A DNA stretch of 60,633 nucleotides from Nitrospira sp. (GTDB lineage Bacteria; Nitrospirota; Nitrospiria; Nitrospirales; Nitrospiraceae). The stretch lies in assembly GCA_024998685.1 (NCBI GenBank), contig JACOEH010000028.1, positions 1 through 60,633 of the forward strand, read 5' to 3'. This document shows positions 4,975-60,633 of the stretch, piece by piece. Position 1 is the first letter of the stretch, and every line of letters starts with the position of its first letter. Below the pieces are notes generated by a model. The model saw nothing but the letters and a program-made list of their open reading frames with translations, did no database searches and was not told the DNA's origin. Position numbers and translations under genes: made by a program.

Positions 4975-5373
4975 ATGGCATACAGCGATAAAGTCGTCGA
5001 TCATTTCAACAACCCCCGCAACATGGGAAGCTTTAAGAAGGACGAAGAAGGTGTGGGCACCGGCATGGTGGGAGCCCCTGAATGCGGCGACGTGATGAAG
5101 CTGCAGATCAAGGTGCAGAACGATACGATCGTCGATGCCAAGTTCAAGACCTTCGGGTGCGGGTCCGCGATCGCCAGTTCCAGCCTGGCCACCGAATGGC
5201 TCAAAGGGAAGACGATCGAGGAAGCTCAGAAAATAAAGAATACGGACATTGTGCAGGAACTGAATCTTCCACCGGTGAAAATTCATTGCTCGGTTCTTGC
5301 GGAAGATGCCATTAAAGCCGCATTGACCGACTATCAGCAGAAGGCTGATACGCAACCGATCGACACGAAGTAA
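4975..5373 (+). CDS. iscU: Fe-S cluster scaffold protein IscU
   Basis: The 132-residue scaffold holds the nascent cluster through C37, C62 and C105 (PECGD, FGCGS, IHCSV) with the conserved D39. The chaperone-recognition loop LPPVK (98-102), bound by HscA, is present, which agrees with hscBA downstream. A GGAGGA ribosome site precedes the start. Confidence 0.96.
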   Translation: MAYSDKVVDHFNNPRNMGSFKKDEEGVGTGMVGAPECGDVMKLQIKVQNDTIVDAKFKTFGCGSAIASSSLATEWLKGKTIEEAQKIKNTDIVQELNLPPVKIHCSVLAEDAIKAALTDYQQKADTQPIDTK

Positions 5374-5395
5374 CGGTCACGAAGGGAGCGTCACG

Positions 5396-5752
5396 ATGGA
5401 CACGACAAATATCGAAACGCAGGCTCCGATCATCTCGCTCACCGACGCAGCCTTGAAAGAGGTGAAGCGACTGATCAATGTCCAAGGGATCGAAGAAGGC
5501 GGACTCCGCCTCGGGGTGAAGGGAGGAGGCTGTTCGGGCCTCAGCTACACGATTAATTTCGATGAGAAGATCGGACAGTACGATCAAGTCTATGAGATCG
5601 ATGGCGTCAAAGTGATCGTCGATGCGAAGAGCGCCATCTATCTCCAGGGAACCCAATTGGACTACCAAAAGGACCTCATGGGCGGGAACTTCAAGTTCCT
5701 CAACCCGAACGCCAACAAGACTTGCGGCTGCGGAGAATCGTTCTCAGCCTGA
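5396..5752 (+). CDS. iscA: A-type Fe-S carrier IscA
   Basis: The 118-residue HesB/IscA protein has the three ligand cysteines in GCSGLSY and in CGCGESF at the C-terminus. It ferries Fe or Fe-S clusters to client proteins. The gene starts 22 bases after iscU behind a GGGAG site and is followed by a strong terminator, so it is probably the last gene of the iscR-S-U-A transcript. Confidence 0.94.
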   Translation: MDTTNIETQAPIISLTDAALKEVKRLINVQGIEEGGLRLGVKGGGCSGLSYTINFDEKIGQYDQVYEIDGVKVIVDAKSAIYLQGTQLDYQKDLMGGNFKFLNPNANKTCGCGESFSA

Positions 5753-54397: not shown

Positions 54398-55402
54398 ATG
54401 CAAGCGAAGAAACGAATGGTGGTCATAGTGCTTGCCGTCCTAGCGGCGATCGCCGGTGGATATCTCTATGTGGGCTCATTGGCCGAGCGGGCGACCGACA
54501 ATACACTCAGGATAGCGGGCAACATCGAAGCGCATGAGAGTGTCGTGGGTTTTAAAGTGCCGGGCCGCATCGTGGAGCTGCCGGTCCAAGAGGGCCAATA
54601 TGTCAACAAGGGCGACCTATTGGCGAGACTGGACGACGACGATTATCGTCAGCAAATAAGCATGGACGAAGCCACGATACGAACACGAGAGGCTGAGCTG
54701 AAGTTGGCCTTGGCCGGGAGCCGTAAACAGGAGATTCAGGCGGCGAAGCAATCGCTGATCGACGCGCGGTCGGATCTCGAACTCAAACGTGCCGAATTCC
54801 GCCGGCGCAAAGACCTTCTCAGCGAACAAGCCGTGTCCCAAGAGGACGTCCACAGCGCGGAGACATTGATGAAGCGAGCCGAGGCCACGTATCAACGCCT
54901 CAAGGAAACCTACGACCAAGTCGTCGAAGGGACCCGCAAAGAAGAAATCGCCGTGCGGCGCGCCGATCTTCAGCTGGCCCAAGAGCATTTGGAAATGGCG
55001 CAAGTGAATCTGTCCTATACCGTCCTCTCGGCTCCGATCTCCGGGGTGGTCTTGGTGCGGCAGGCCGAACTCGGCGAGGTCGTGGCTCCAGGAACGCCGG
55101 TCGTCACGATTGCCGATGTCGACCGGCTCTGGATGCGAGGCTACATCAACGAGACGGACCTGGGTCGAGTACGGTGGGATCAACCGGCTACCGTGCACAC
55201 GGATACTCACCCGGGCAAGGATTACCACGGTCGCGTGTCGTTCATCGCGTCCCGAGCCGAGTTCACGCCGAAGAGCGTGGAGACCTACAAGGAACGCGTG
55301 ACGCTCGTCTATCGCATCAAGATTGATCTGGAAAACTCGAACCACGAGCTCAAACCAGGCATGCCGGCTGAGGCGATCATCGACGTGCCGCCGAAACAAT
55401 GA
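54398..55402 (+). CDS. HlyD-type membrane fusion protein
   Basis: The 334-residue protein has one N-terminal membrane segment (VIVLAVLAAIAGGYLYVGS), a biotinyl-lipoyl half-motif (FKVPGRIVELPVQEGQYVNKGD), a long coiled-coil hairpin (residues about 85-190) and a second half with YTVLSAPISGVVLVRQAELGEVV. It links the inner-membrane ABC transporter to an outer-membrane channel, which is not encoded here. Confidence 0.92.
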   Translation: MQAKKRMVVIVLAVLAAIAGGYLYVGSLAERATDNTLRIAGNIEAHESVVGFKVPGRIVELPVQEGQYVNKGDLLARLDDDDYRQQISMDEATIRTREAELKLALAGSRKQEIQAAKQSLIDARSDLELKRAEFRRRKDLLSEQAVSQEDVHSAETLMKRAEATYQRLKETYDQVVEGTRKEEIAVRRADLQLAQEHLEMAQVNLSYTVLSAPISGVVLVRQAELGEVVAPGTPVVTIADVDRLWMRGYINETDLGRVRWDQPATVHTDTHPGKDYHGRVSFIASRAEFTPKSVETYKERVTLVYRIKIDLENSNHELKPGMPAEAIIDVPPKQ

Positions 55403-55405
55403 CGT

Positions 55406-56335
55406 ATGCCGATCTCCGTTGCCGCATCGGACTTGACGAAACGCTTTCCCGGAGTCACGGCCGTAAACCGCCTGACGTTCGAGGTACATGCAGGTGAGAT
55501 TTTCGGGTTGGTGGGCCCTGATGGAGCAGGAAAGACGACGACGCTTCGCATGCTGGCCGGCGTTCTCTCACCGGATGGGGGATCGGCGACCGTCGCGGGC
55601 GCCGATATCGCCCGCGAGCCTGAAGCGGCCAAGGCCCGCCTCAGTTACATGCCGCAACGTTTCGGACTCTACGAAGATTTGACCGTCGCGGAGAACATTC
55701 GTTTCTACGCCGATGTGTTCGGCGTGTCTCGAGCGGAACGAGAGACGCGGTCTCGGCAATTGCTCGACGCCGCCGGCATGGATCCCTTTACGACTCGGTT
55801 GGCCGGCAAGCTTTCCGGAGGAATGAAACAAAAGCTGGGACTCGTCTGCGCCCTAATCCATCGCCCCCTCGTGATCCTGCTCGATGAACCGACCAACGGC
55901 GTGGATCCGGTCTCGCGTCGGGATTTTTGGCGCATCCTGTACTCGCTGCTGAACGAAGGCATTGCCATTCTGATGTCGACATCCTATCTCGACGAAGCCG
56001 AACGCTGCCATCGGGTGGCGCTGCTCCATCAGGGACAGATGCTGTATTGCGAGACGCCTGCCGGATTGAAGAGACGCCTCCACGGCGCGGTGGTGTCGGT
56101 CGTCGGACATGAGGCCCGCCGTATTCGAGCCGCCCTCGGCGGAGCAGCCGGCGTGCTCAACACCTTGCTCGTCGGCGATGGTGTCCATCTCGTGGTGGAC
56201 GATGCCGCGCGTCGCATTCCCGAGCTTCGGGCGGCGCTCCAGGCGACCGGCCTGGCGTTTGATCGCCTGGAAGAAGTCGAGCCGACGATCGAAGACCTAT
56301 TCGTCGCCGCCACCTCCGAAGACCGGAAACCATGA
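55406..56335 (+). CDS. ABC exporter ATP-binding protein 1
   Basis: The 309-residue ATPase has Walker A GPDGAGKTT, signature LSGGMKQKL and Walker B VILLDEPTNGVDP. The C-terminal extension of about 80 residues is typical of CcmA/YhhJ-type drug or polymer exporters. Its end overlaps the second ATPase gene by 4 bases. The two ATPases are not fused here, unlike E. coli YbhF, where both halves are one protein. Confidence 0.93.
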   Translation: MPISVAASDLTKRFPGVTAVNRLTFEVHAGEIFGLVGPDGAGKTTTLRMLAGVLSPDGGSATVAGADIAREPEAAKARLSYMPQRFGLYEDLTVAENIRFYADVFGVSRAERETRSRQLLDAAGMDPFTTRLAGKLSGGMKQKLGLVCALIHRPLVILLDEPTNGVDPVSRRDFWRILYSLLNEGIAILMSTSYLDEAERCHRVALLHQGQMLYCETPAGLKRRLHGAVVSVVGHEARRIRAALGGAAGVLNTLLVGDGVHLVVDDAARRIPELRAALQATGLAFDRLEEVEPTIEDLFVAATSEDRKP

Positions 56336-57282
56336 CGGACCACGATACGATACCGGTGCTCGCGCACGATCTCGTCAAACGCTTCGGCGACTTCGTTGCC
56401 GTGGACCATATCAATCTGGAAGCGCGGGCGGGAGAGGTGGTGGGATTTTTGGGCCCGAACGGCTCCGGCAAATCGACGACGATCCGCATGCTCTGCGGTC
56501 TGCTTCGCCCATCCGCTGGACAGGCCTTGGTGGCCGGCTTTGATGTCGCCAGGAAGCCTGAACAGGTGCGCCGCCGGATCGGGTATATGTCGCAGAAGTT
56601 TTCGCTCTACAACGACCTTCAAGTGATCGAAAACATCCGGTTCTTTGCCGGCATGTATGACGTGCCGGCGTCGGTCCTTCATGAACGGACGGAGTGGGTA
56701 CTCTACATGGCCGGTTTGGTCGGTCGCGAATCGACGATCACCGGTACGCTGCCCGGCGGATGGAAACAACGGCTCGCCTTGGGTTGCGCCGTGCTCCATC
56801 GACCGTCGATTCTCTTCCTGGACGAACCGACATCCGGCGTCGATCCGATCTCACGTCGACGATTTTGGGAGTTGATCCATGCGATGGCAGCCGAAGGAGT
56901 GACCGTGCTCGTGACCACGCACTACATGGACGAGGCGGAGTATTGCAATCGTCTCGTGTTGATTTTTCAAGGCCGTATCGTGGCCTCGGGGTCGCCGACG
57001 GAGTTGAAACAGCAGGCCATGGCCGGAGAGCTGCTGCTGATCGAATGCGATCGGCTCGGCCCCGCGCTCGACCTGCTGCAGCAGGTTCCGGACGCTCGGC
57101 ATGTCGCCTTGTTCGGCAAGGCGCTGCACGTCGTCGTGCCTGACGCGCAGACCGGTATCCCGCGTCTCCGCGCCGTTCTGTCGGCACATGGAATCGCAGT
57201 GTCGCGCATCGAACCGATCCGCGCGAGCTTGGAAGATGTCTTCGTCTCGCTGACCGCGCAACTGAGCGGTCAGAGGACTTGA
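56332..57282 (+). CDS. ABC exporter ATP-binding protein 2
   Basis: The 316-residue ATPase has Walker A GPNGSGKST, an altered signature LPGGWKQRL (Ser to Pro relative to LSGG) and Walker B ILFLDEPTSGVDP. It likely pairs with ATPase 1 as a heterodimer, the variant signature making the two sites unequal. Overlaps of 4 bases at both ends show tight coupling. Confidence 0.93.
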   Translation: MTDHDTIPVLAHDLVKRFGDFVAVDHINLEARAGEVVGFLGPNGSGKSTTIRMLCGLLRPSAGQALVAGFDVARKPEQVRRRIGYMSQKFSLYNDLQVIENIRFFAGMYDVPASVLHERTEWVLYMAGLVGRESTITGTLPGGWKQRLALGCAVLHRPSILFLDEPTSGVDPISRRRFWELIHAMAAEGVTVLVTTHYMDEAEYCNRLVLIFQGRIVASGSPTELKQQAMAGELLLIECDRLGPALDLLQQVPDARHVALFGKALHVVVPDAQTGIPRLRAVLSAHGIAVSRIEPIRASLEDVFVSLTAQLSGQRT

Positions 57283-58415
57283 TGCGCCTGCACCGACTCA
57301 TCGCCGTTATCCGCAAGGAAACGATCCAGATTCGCCGCGATCTCGCCAGTCTGTTGATTACCGTGACGATGCCGCTGCTTTTCATGCTGGCATTCGGCTA
57401 TGGGGTTCGTTTCGACGTCAAACACATTCCGGTGTACGTATACGATCGGGCCGGCAATCAGCAAAGCCAGGATTTTCTGAAACATTTCCAAGCGTCTGAG
57501 TATTTTCGCATCGTCAAGGCCGTGGACAATTATCCCGCGTTGATCCAAGCGCTCGACTCAGGAGCCTGCCGCCTGGCCATCGTCATCCCGATCGATTTCT
57601 CCGAGCAGTTGGGCGCGGGCGGTCCCGTCGCCGTACAAGCGCTGGTCGATGCCACCGACAACAACACCGCGAATATCAGTCTCAGTTACAGTGAAGCCGT
57701 CGTTCAGTCCTATAATCAACGCCTCCGCCTGGACTGGAGTCAGCGCCACGGACTGAGCACGGTCCAATCTCCGTTGAGCGTCGATATCAGGACCTGGTTC
57801 AACGAAAACCTTGAGAGCACCGCCAATATCGTCCCGGGGGTCATCGCCATCATCATGGCCGTCATCGGCTCCTTTCTCACTTCACTGACGGTCGCGAGAG
57901 AGTGGGAGCGCGGCACCATGGAACAACTCGTCTCCACGCCGATCACGCCCCTAGAACTCATGATCGGGAAACTCGTGCCGTATTTTGTGATCGGACTGGT
58001 GGACACGGTTCTTTGCGCCGCGGTGGCGATCCGGTGGTTCGAGGTGCCCTTTCGCGGGCAGTGGACGGTATTGTTCCTCAGCTGCACTCTGTTTCTCATC
58101 GTCGTGCTGTCGCTGGGATATGTCATTTCGGTCGTGGCCAAATCTCAACTCGCCGCAAGTCAGGCTGCATTGATCGCCACGTTTCTCCCGGCCTTTCTGC
58201 TCTCGGGATTCCTCTACCCCGTCGATCAAATGCCGGCGGCGACCCAAATCATTACTTATTTTGTTCCGGCACGCTATTTCATGACGATTCTCCGCGATGT
58301 CTTTCTGAAAGGAACGTCGCTTCCTTTTCTGATGGACGATCTGCTTGCGTTGGCTCTCTTCGCCACAATCCTGACGATCCTGGCCACGCGTGTGTTCCAC
58401 AAAAAGCTGACGTAG
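57279..58415 (+). CDS. ABC-2 type permease 1
   Basis: The 378-residue protein has one N-terminal membrane segment, a large periplasmic domain (about residues 45-170) and five C-terminal membrane helices with REWERGTMEQL, the ABC-2 coupling-helix phrase. It is homologous to the next gene. Together they form the membrane channel of the exporter. Confidence 0.92.
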   Translation: MMRLHRLIAVIRKETIQIRRDLASLLITVTMPLLFMLAFGYGVRFDVKHIPVYVYDRAGNQQSQDFLKHFQASEYFRIVKAVDNYPALIQALDSGACRLAIVIPIDFSEQLGAGGPVAVQALVDATDNNTANISLSYSEAVVQSYNQRLRLDWSQRHGLSTVQSPLSVDIRTWFNENLESTANIVPGVIAIIMAVIGSFLTSLTVAREWERGTMEQLVSTPITPLELMIGKLVPYFVIGLVDTVLCAAVAIRWFEVPFRGQWTVLFLSCTLFLIVVLSLGYVISVVAKSQLAASQAALIATFLPAFLLSGFLYPVDQMPAATQIITYFVPARYFMTILRDVFLKGTSLPFLMDDLLALALFATILTILATRVFHKKLT

Positions 58416-58424
58416 GAATGCTTC

Positions 58425-59558
58425 ATGCTGCGACGCCTCCACGAGATGTTGGTCAAGGAATTCATCCAAGTTTTTCGGGATACACGCACCCGTACGCTTT
58501 TGTTCGTCCCTCCCATCATTCAAATGCTTATTTTCGGCTATGCCGCGACCTTGGAAGTCCGCCACATCCCCATCGCGGTACTGGATTACGACAATAGCCA
58601 AGTAAGCCGAGAGCTCCTATCACGCTTCACCGCCAGTCCGTACTTCGATGTCCGCACATACCTGAGCGACCGTCGGGAGATCGGAGATCTGATCGATCGC
58701 GGAGAGGTCACGGTGGCGCTTCAGATCAACGGAGGATTTGCTCAGGACCTCGGGAAAGGTCAAACGGCTCGGTTGCAAGTGATCGTAGACAGCAGTAACT
58801 CCAATACCGCCTTGATTGCAGTCAGCTATATCAATCAGATCGCCGCCCGGTTCGCCCAGGAATTTCAACGAACGCAGCTTCTCCGGACATCCCCTTTCGC
58901 TCCATCGCAGATGCCGTCGATCGTTTTTGAGAGACGCCCCTTGTTCAACGTCAATTTCGACAGTCAATGGTTTTTCGTGCCCGGCGTGATCGGCAACCTG
59001 ATCTTGGTCATGGTCGTGAGTCTGACGGCGTTTGCCATCGTTCGCGAGCGGGAAATCGGCACGCTCGAACAGATTATGGTCACACCGATCGGCCGACTGG
59101 AGTTCATCCTCGGCAAAACAGTACCTTTCTTTCTGATCGGACTGTTCGACACCGCCCTTGTTTCATTGGTAGGCACCTTCTGGTTCGGCGTGCCGTTCCG
59201 TGGGAGCATCGGCGTCCTTGCAATCGGCAGCATCCTGTTCATCCTCTGCATGCTGGGCATCGGGCTGTTTATTTCGACCATTTCGAGAACTCAGCAGCAG
59301 GCGATGGTATCAGGATTTTTCTTCAACATGCCGGCCATCAGCTTTTCCGGATTCGGCACCCCCATCGGCAGCATGCCGGAATGGCTACAAACTCTCACCT
59401 ACCTCAACCCCTTGCGGCATTTCCTGGAAGTCCTGCGCGGCGTCTACCTCAAAGGCGTGAGGCTGGACGTCCTATGGCCGCAAATGGTCGCCATGGGTCT
59501 TTTAGGCTCGATCATGTTGGCGATCAGCGTGGCTCGGTTCCAGAAGTCACTGGATTGA
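58425..59558 (+). CDS. ABC-2 type permease 2
   Basis: The 377-residue paralog of permease 1 has the same layout, with RTRTLLFVPPIIQMLIFGYAA at the start, the periplasmic domain, REREIGTLEQIMVTP as coupling helix and LNPLRHFLEVLRGVYLKG near the end. Part of this 3' end (59434-59477) recurs as a diverged relic at 60329-60372, beyond vapBC. Confidence 0.92.
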   Translation: MLRRLHEMLVKEFIQVFRDTRTRTLLFVPPIIQMLIFGYAATLEVRHIPIAVLDYDNSQVSRELLSRFTASPYFDVRTYLSDRREIGDLIDRGEVTVALQINGGFAQDLGKGQTARLQVIVDSSNSNTALIAVSYINQIAARFAQEFQRTQLLRTSPFAPSQMPSIVFERRPLFNVNFDSQWFFVPGVIGNLILVMVVSLTAFAIVREREIGTLEQIMVTPIGRLEFILGKTVPFFLIGLFDTALVSLVGTFWFGVPFRGSIGVLAIGSILFILCMLGIGLFISTISRTQQQAMVSGFFFNMPAISFSGFGTPIGSMPEWLQTLTYLNPLRHFLEVLRGVYLKGVRLDVLWPQMVAMGLLGSIMLAISVARFQKSLD

Positions 59559-59603
59559 GCTTCTTCTTGTCTGCGGCTGATGGCCTGAGGCCTCACCGAT
59601 GAA

Positions 59604-59648
59604 GTGGATCTTTAGCTCGAGGATGATCCACATCCTCTATTCTTTTTT
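59604..59648 (+). terminator. terminator of the exporter operon
   Basis: Two overlapping hairpins are possible: GTGGATC/GATCCAC (59604-59610 with 59625-59631) and GAGGAT/ATCCTC (59619-59624 with 59632-59637). TTTTTT follows at 59643-59648. The second hairpin with the T-run is the likelier terminator. Mutually exclusive stems could also act as a switch. Confidence 0.6.
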
Positions 59649-59672
59649 GACCGTGGCAACTCACTGCCATGC

Positions 59673-59702
59673 TTGACAGTATATGCCTTGACCATGCATA
59701 TT
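59673..59702 (+). promoter_or_regulatory. vapBC promoter with operator palindrome
   Basis: TTGACA (59673-59678) and CATATT (59697-59702) are spaced by 18 bases. ATATGC (59681-59686) and GCATAT (59696-59701) are perfect inverted arms between them. Transcription would start about at the vapB ATG (59710), and no ribosome site is seen, so vapB may be leaderless and autorepressed. Confidence 0.55.
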
Positions 59703-59709
59703 CAGGCAC

Positions 59710-59901
59710 ATGCGCACCACACTCAATATCGACGACCATCTCATCAAGCGCGCGGTGCAACTCACCGGCGTTCAGGAAAAGACGCAGCTCGTACGCTTGG
59801 GGCTCGAGGCTCTCATTTCACGTGAAGCCGCCAAGCGTCTTGCCAGGCTGGGCGGTAGCGAACCCCATCTGAAAGAAATCCATCGGCGTCGCCCCGTCTA
59901 G
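59710..59901 (+). CDS. vapB: VapB-type antitoxin
   Basis: The 63-residue protein MRTTLNIDDHLIKRAVQLTGVQEKTQLVRLGLEAL is a ribbon-helix-helix-type antitoxin of the VapB/DUF2191 group. Its tail GGSEPHLKEIHRRR would wrap the toxin. It stops 2 bases before vapC. Confidence 0.9.
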   Translation: MRTTLNIDDHLIKRAVQLTGVQEKTQLVRLGLEALISREAAKRLARLGGSEPHLKEIHRRRPV

Positions 59902-59903
59902 GC

Positions 59904-60275
59904 ATGCCCACATTGGTCGACACCTCCGTGTGGATCGACCACTTTCGTAGCAACTCTTCCGCTCTCCGACGGCTGCTGGACGACGACCTAGTCATGTGCC
60001 ATCCGCTCGTCATCGGTGAAATTGCCTGTGGCAACATGAGACATCGATCTGAAGTGCTCGAATCTCTAACCGTCCTTCCTACCGCCCCCACCATTGACTA
60101 TGAGGAGCTCCTGACGTTTGTCGAAACCCATAAGCTCTTTGGACAGGGCTTAGGCTGGATCGACGTACATCTCCTCGCCTCGACAATGCTCCAACAAATC
60201 ACACTTTGGACCTTCGACCAGGCTTTACGAAACGCCGCCAGAAGACTGCGCTGTCATTTTGATGCGCCCGACTGA
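59904..60275 (+). CDS. vapC: VapC-type PIN-domain RNase toxin
   Basis: The 123-residue PIN-domain ribonuclease has acidic metal ligands in LVDTSVW (D6), VIGEIACG, GWIDVHLL and TFDQAL. VapC toxins cut tRNA or rRNA and are neutralised by VapB. The reading frame is intact. A relic of the upstream permease gene follows within about 45 bases of the stop. Confidence 0.92.
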   Translation: MPTLVDTSVWIDHFRSNSSALRRLLDDDLVMCHPLVIGEIACGNMRHRSEVLESLTVLPTAPTIDYEELLTFVETHKLFGQGLGWIDVHLLASTMLQQITLWTFDQALRNAARRLRCHFDAPD

Positions 60276-60318
60276 GCGACCATTCCCTGGTATTGAAAAG
60301 GTATCCGACCATCCGACC

Positions 60319-60396
60319 CCTTATGTGTTGCGCGGCATCTACCTGAAAGGCGTAGAGCTGGATGTGCTGTGGTCGGTCGCGCCGCTCGTCGACTAG
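60319..60396 (+). pseudogene. relic of an ABC permease 3' end
   Basis: It encodes VLRGIYLKGVELDVLW, matching VLRGVYLKGVRLDVLW at the end of permease 2. The core 60329-60372 aligns with 59434-59477 at 36 of 44 positions (hand count). Upstream the match stops after a possible short deletion, and downstream it runs into unrelated sequence and a stop codon. Confidence 0.75.
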
Positions 60397-60589
60397 AGCC
60401 ACATATGACGGGAGATGTCGAATAGTAGATAAATACCAGACTTTTCAGTAGACTTGGTTTTCAACACGCTGAGGGGTCGTGTATCTTTTAGCTGAAAGAG
60501 TGGACAAGTTGCTAACAAAGACTCTTCTATGCGAGAGCTAGAATCTGCCGATACGTGGAGTGGTTCTTCCGTTAAGGATTAATGAAGCT
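60397..60589. other. AT-rich region with no gene
   Basis: No ORF or motif is seen on either strand between the permease relic and the hairpin near the window end. The composition is AT-richer than the rest, as in accessory DNA. Confidence 0.4.
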
Positions 60590-60609
60590 CCCCGCAGCAA
60601 GCTGCGGGG
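60590..60609. repeat. 9-bp GC-rich hairpin near the window end
   Basis: CCCCGCAGC (60590-60598) and GCTGCGGGG (60601-60609) are perfect inverted arms separated by AA. It may belong to a mobile-element end or be a terminator of something beyond the window. No T-run follows. Confidence 0.5.
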
Positions 60610-60633
60610 TATCACAGAACTAAAACATTCGGA

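Follow-up and report, generated by a model that had tools for sequence, protein, structure and literature searches.

The stretch of DNA analysed here (the window, 60,633 nucleotides) corresponds to the entire contig C42 of a Nitrospira assembly (genome G000, 4.83 Mb in 105 contigs), a MAG that is 98.8% complete, presents a contamination of 0.87%, and is placed in the genus Nitrospira by its close named relatives. The right end of the window is a contig break within a multi-copy insertion sequence (IS). Near this end, an exporter operon is followed by a toxin-antitoxin module, a piece of permease gene, and the leader of a second module, arranged as follows.

54398-59558: exporter operon encoding an HlyD protein, with two ATPase genes and two ABC-2 permease genes (Pfam, except for the first ATPase)
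55406-56335: first ATPase gene of the exporter operon, assigned by reading, without Pfam
58425-59558, forward strand: ABC-2 permease, the final gene of the operon (Pfam ABC2_membrane_3, 3.2e-53), with orthologues in relatives
58880/58881, no strand: recombination breakpoint, with G044-like sequence to the left and G001/G010-like sequence to the right (maximum chi-square and trees)
59559-59696, forward strand: spacer that includes the promoter side of vapBC and has homologues in G010, G044, and G023
59710-59901, forward strand: vapB antitoxin gene (Pfam VapB_antitoxin, PF09957, 1.1e-15)
59904-60275, forward strand: vapC toxin gene with a PIN domain (Pfam PF01850, 3.2e-9)
60276-60327, forward strand: tail of the vapBC segment, partly also found in G010, G023, and G030; G044 differs after 60288
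About 60328-60376 (48-49 bases), forward strand: relic of an ABC-2 permease 3′ end, not a gene (DNA match to permeases)
60378-60401, forward strand: 24-base link; among the matches listed for 79 genomes, G001 alone has it in full, joined to DNA downstream of the permease
60402-60587, forward strand: leader of a hicBA module; a similar leader precedes hicB in other Nitrospira
60581-60633, no strand: left end of an IS200/IS605-like element, inside which the contig stops

The vapB gene adjoins the PIN-domain toxin gene with a gap of 2 bases, and the pair is a predicted VapBC type II toxin-antitoxin module. Both the coordinates and the Pfam domains agree with its placement between the permease and the relic in the first-pass annotation. 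The spacer that precedes the module showed 82-89% identity among G000, G010, G044, and G023, and a search of plasmids with 59558-60633 at an E-value of 1e-5 returned zero matches.

The relic was recognized by the similarity of 60329-60372 to 59434-59477 of the window's own permease, which had been noted before at 36 of 44 identical bases and was recovered exactly. This is also the top ungapped 44-mer score between 60276-60580 and the permease gene, and 100 dinucleotide-preserving shuffles gave a mean of 24.4 and never rose above 28. The frame of the relic translates as VLRGIYLKGVELDVLW, and the last 77 bases of the permease gene are missing from it. Judged by these alignments, the segment is shown to be a diverged fragment of a permease of this family. 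Over 47 bases, it shares 42 with the permeases of G001 and G010, 40 with that of G044, 38 with the window's own permease and that of G077, 37 with those of G023, G057, G076, and G020 and with a paralogue in G010 (contig C45), and 36 with that of G052 (N. moscoviensis). In this stretch, the own permease copy and the relic each differ by five changes from the sequence common to G001 and G010, and none of these changes is shared. Of the original proposal that the relic derives from the 3′ end of the neighbouring permease, the family assignment stands. The relic as a recent copy of the adjoining permease was judged unlikely (38/47 only, with no changes in common), as was an origin from another permease of G000, since it has 30/47 bases in common with the paralogue locus on contig C94 and 25/47 with the permease encoded first in the operon. 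The assignment of the relic to the G001/G010 lineage would rest on short evidence, namely the 47 bases and one derived site (GTA). Its five changes are all transitions, three of which alter an amino acid, a pattern consistent, for so small a number, with what free decay would give. The relic itself is most likely without function. An ORF that crosses it (60259-60396) was read as a chance occurrence, with no Pfam match at an E-value of 0.001, and a scan of 59400-60633 against Rfam gave no match at E-values up to 1.

The relic had also been described as lying out of any gene context, but it actually lies between the vapC tail and the hicBA leader, and it does not belong to an unrelated downstream gene, the possibility that had been named against its permease origin. 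The restriction of the full link to G001 holds among the matches listed for 79 genomes, and 60378-60587 as a whole is 92.9% identical to G001. As for the element at the contig end, a complete IS200-like copy in G061 encodes a Y1 transposase (Pfam Y1_Tnp, 1.7e-34). Many genomes of the genus contain its hairpin-like ends, and G001 has numerous matches to them. Another contig of G000, C94, read as its reverse complement (L222), begins with the opposite end of such an IS, followed by hicB and then by an intact hicA, in which HicB_lk_antitox (5.6e-8) adjoins HicA_toxin (1.8e-19) by Pfam; the hicB of G000 is 94.8% identical to that of G001. We infer that the leader on C42 continues to hicB and hicA on C94 across the IS; the IS ends and the gene order of G001 fit such a connection, although no contig spans the IS. 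Further along C94 lies a gene, which we take to be AsmA-like, that marks the limit of the region in G001, G023, and G044 as well.

Two further observations concern this junction and leader. The leader motif TAGATAAAC-8-TTTCAGTAGACTTG, located at 60426-60456 in the window and searched with up to 2 mismatches, was found at 20 sites in 19 of 79 Nitrospira genomes (loci L234-L253), and the motif read backwards had 0 occurrences in the 79 genomes. It precedes hicB at 7 of the 20 sites and a DUF2283-containing gene or gene pair at 8, the remaining five, the window's site among them, carrying no assignment by motif. Therefore, two different small modules share one leader. Moreover, a 21-base likeness (90%, E 0.4) to the junction of the relic and the link was found directly before the vapBC of G012 (L213); it may be due to chance, although chance alone is a less easy explanation so close to vapBC.

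The same locus was then compared among related Nitrospira, the permease being searched in 59 genomes of the genus and the DNA of 59200-60633 in 79, with at most a few candidates scored per genome. At a level of about 73% or more, eleven loci, including that of the window, matched the permease DNA all the way to its end: G000, G001 (contig C40, JAICWG010000104.1), G010 (contig C40, JAFEBM010000046.1), G044 (contig C264, JAICUC010000123.1), G023, G077, G057, G076, G052, G020, and G070, the most distant. The vapBC module lies directly behind the permease in three of the eleven (G000, G044, and G023), and the relic is present in G000 only; in G044 and G023, vapBC follows the same permease and a homologous spacer with the relic absent. 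In G010, the spacer is joined to the vapBC tail, vapBC is gone, and neither the relic nor this hicBA is present. By reading, an apparent hicA remnant precedes hicB in this genome (L038, about 5340-5640 of the locus), as if modules had eroded and left the antitoxin. In G001, 19 bases past the permease stop are followed by the window's 60377-60587 at 93% and then by hicB and further hicAB genes, so that the hicBA segment stands straight behind the permease, without vapBC or the relic. An orphan vapB without vapC was seen about 2 kb behind the permease of G077 (L210), 84% identical to that of the window over 218 bases. No match to 59560-60633 was found past the permease stop in the flanks examined of G057, G076, G052, and G020, nor in the 1.5 kb examined in G070.

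Measured to a motif in the bounding gene, the interval that starts at the permease stop has a length of about 1.7 kb (G023), 3.6 kb (G001), or 5.1 kb (G044), and it contains vapBC, hicBA, hicAB, brnT (in G044), and others. Pfam confirmed HicA in G001 and BrnT in G044, and the HicB genes of second modules and the genes of G010 and G023 were named by likeness. The stretch between the exporter operon and the bounding gene is, in this way, a hotspot of toxin-antitoxin modules in this Nitrospira clade.

The most informative part of the locus is a switch of ancestry in the flanking gene. Along the operon and its last gene, 227 informative sites divide at 58,880 with a maximum chi-square of 68.5, a value reached in 0 of 2000 permutations; G044-like and G001/G010-like sites number 136 and 40 to the left of this point, and 7 and 44 to its right. 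The identity of G000 to G044 is 96.0% over 56261-58880 and 88.0% from there to the permease end, and across the same point it passes from 89.3 to 92.4% for G001 and from 88.7 to 92.6% for G010. G044 itself moves from 89.1 to 87.9% against G001, from 88.8 to 88.7% against G010, and from 89.8 to 91.1% against G023; because these values change little, G000 is the likelier recombinant. FastTree topologies on the two sides are incongruent, grouping G000 with G044 on the left (support 1.000) and with G001 on the right (0.865), within a clade with G010 (0.971). The nearest relative thus switches significantly inside the permease, which is a mosaic gene. By these comparisons, the last ~680 bases of the permease in G000 are shown to be of foreign, G001/G010-like ancestry, and the rest of the operon is G044-like.

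The vapBC module of G000 is 84.5% identical to that of G044 and 84.8% to that of G023. Since the vapBC modules of G044 and G023 are more alike (95.1%) than their operons (90.1%), vapBC may have been exchanged in these two genomes, and therefore the distance of the window's vapBC is, alone, no proof of import. Identity to G044 drops to 85-88% in further stretches of the window as well, so that mosaic ancestry is common here and may be independent of the relic.

These data place the relic at the junction of the vapBC tail with the hicBA segment, and not at a vapBC insertion. Since vapBC is present without the relic in G044 and G023, vapBC did not bring it. The origin that we favour, at somewhat better than even chances, is that of a toxin-antitoxin hotspot behind the exporter, reshuffled by recombination among related Nitrospira; the left edge of the hicBA segment would here be formed by the relic, as a scrap of an orthologous permease. 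A vapBC-bearing and a hicBA-bearing version of the locus would have been joined illegitimately in a G001-like lineage, with some permease sequence left over between the modules. Homologous recombination in the permease would then have brought the tract from about 58,880 onwards (permease 3′ part, vapBC, relic, and hicBA) into G000, and vapBC and the relic would later have been lost from G001, or may never have been there. The hicBA segment appears to have been joined to the vapBC tail without long homology, by what we propose was illegitimate recombination. Against this explanation stands the fact that the segment common to G000 and G001 starts within about 2 bases of the relic end, which a simple deletion in G001 or a simple insertion explains poorly. 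A permease joined to the link at the end of the relic was found in none of the matches listed for the 79 genomes, a weak silence because the search also missed the permeases of G001 and G010, whose 42/47 match to the relic is known.

The insertion of vapBC at the 3′ end region of the permease, with a piece of the permease duplicated on its far side, was implied by the first-pass annotation and agrees with the succession of permease, vapBC, and permease fragment, as well as with G001, in which both flanks are joined without vapBC or the relic. Even so, it is improbable: vapBC occupies the same place behind a homologous spacer without any relic in G044 and G023, and the scar left in G010 is also relic-free. 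Moreover, the two copies, identical at only 36 of 44 bases, do not resemble a target-site duplication; the relic is nearer the orthologues (42/47) than its own permease (38/47), and it does not reach the end of the gene. Another alternative is that an incoming permease 3′ end with vapBC was joined illegitimately inside the resident permease, whose old 3′ end was pushed downstream, with the loss of ~96 bases up to hicBA. The breakpoint inside the permease gene, the greater likeness of the relic to the permeases of other genomes, and the position of hicBA directly behind the permease in G001 all speak for such displacement, which we nevertheless hold to be quite unlikely. It requires an extra deletion that stops where the hicBA segment begins; within the permease, it is the 3′ part beside vapBC that is foreign, at the level of G001 and G010; and the resident should be G044-like, yet the relic shares 40/47 with G044 against 42/47 with G001 and G010, which is a small difference.

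Templated filler, in which ~49 bases were copied from the permease about 900 bases upstream when the vapBC tail was joined to hicBA, would account for the small size of the relic, its exact position at the junction, and a local source, but such an event must be old, because the own copy and the relic carry five changes each from G001/G010 and none in common; its probability is low, marginally below that of a vapBC insertion with duplication. The relic alone does not decide among a recombination join, a displaced resident tail, and templated filler. In addition, the breakpoint could in principle reflect a chimera of two Nitrospira strains assembled from one metagenome, considering the 105 contigs of this MAG, the ancestry switch at 58,880, and the contig end at about 260 bases from the relic. 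We regard this as very improbable, since in G001, a separate assembly, this permease is likewise followed by this hicBA segment, hicB, hicA, and the common downstream anchor succeed one another on C94 as expected, contamination is low, and no examined relative is near-identical to either half.

It is still a matter of debate how small toxin-antitoxin modules pass from one chromosome to another when they lack their own transposase. Under the favoured origin, a recombination-reshuffled hotspot, the relic is most likely a recombination scar where toxin-antitoxin pairs come and go. One locus unites here an ancestry switch in the flanking gene, several modules, erased modules (in G010 and G001), and, where two modules meet, a scrap of that gene; it is suggestive, as a single locus, of exchange that homology in the adjacent gene would drive. 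Speculatively, and with the balance of probability against it, the conserved permease could act as a homologous landing pad, on which incoming DNA would pair, the modules behind it being exchanged or accumulated through illegitimate joins at the other end, with recognisable permease scraps, such as this relic, as a by-product. If this were true, module turnover at such chromosomal hotspots would need no integrase.

Regarding known systems, the vapBC module shares with VapBC type II modules the adjacency of VapB_antitoxin and PIN genes, antitoxin first, and nothing in it, as predicted from sequence, is out of the ordinary. The HicB-like and HicA proteins at the end of C94, with their leader in the window, resemble HicAB/HicBA modules, but in G000 an IS200-like element appears to part the leader from the genes. 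This element has the hairpin-like ends of IS200/IS605 elements and the Y1 transposase in its G061 copy, whereas in G000 it is known from its two ends alone. Recombination scars in toxin-antitoxin hotspots are already known as a kind, to which this locus adds one example. Homology-facilitated illegitimate recombination (HFIR) is a described process (PMC6382021). Unlike HFIR as described there, the events at this locus are deduced from sequence alone, and its two junctions may be separate events. The locus resembles HFIR in combining a homology-anchored end, the breakpoint in the permease, with a junction of little or no homology; HFIR could yield such an outcome and may, by this likeness, have acted here.
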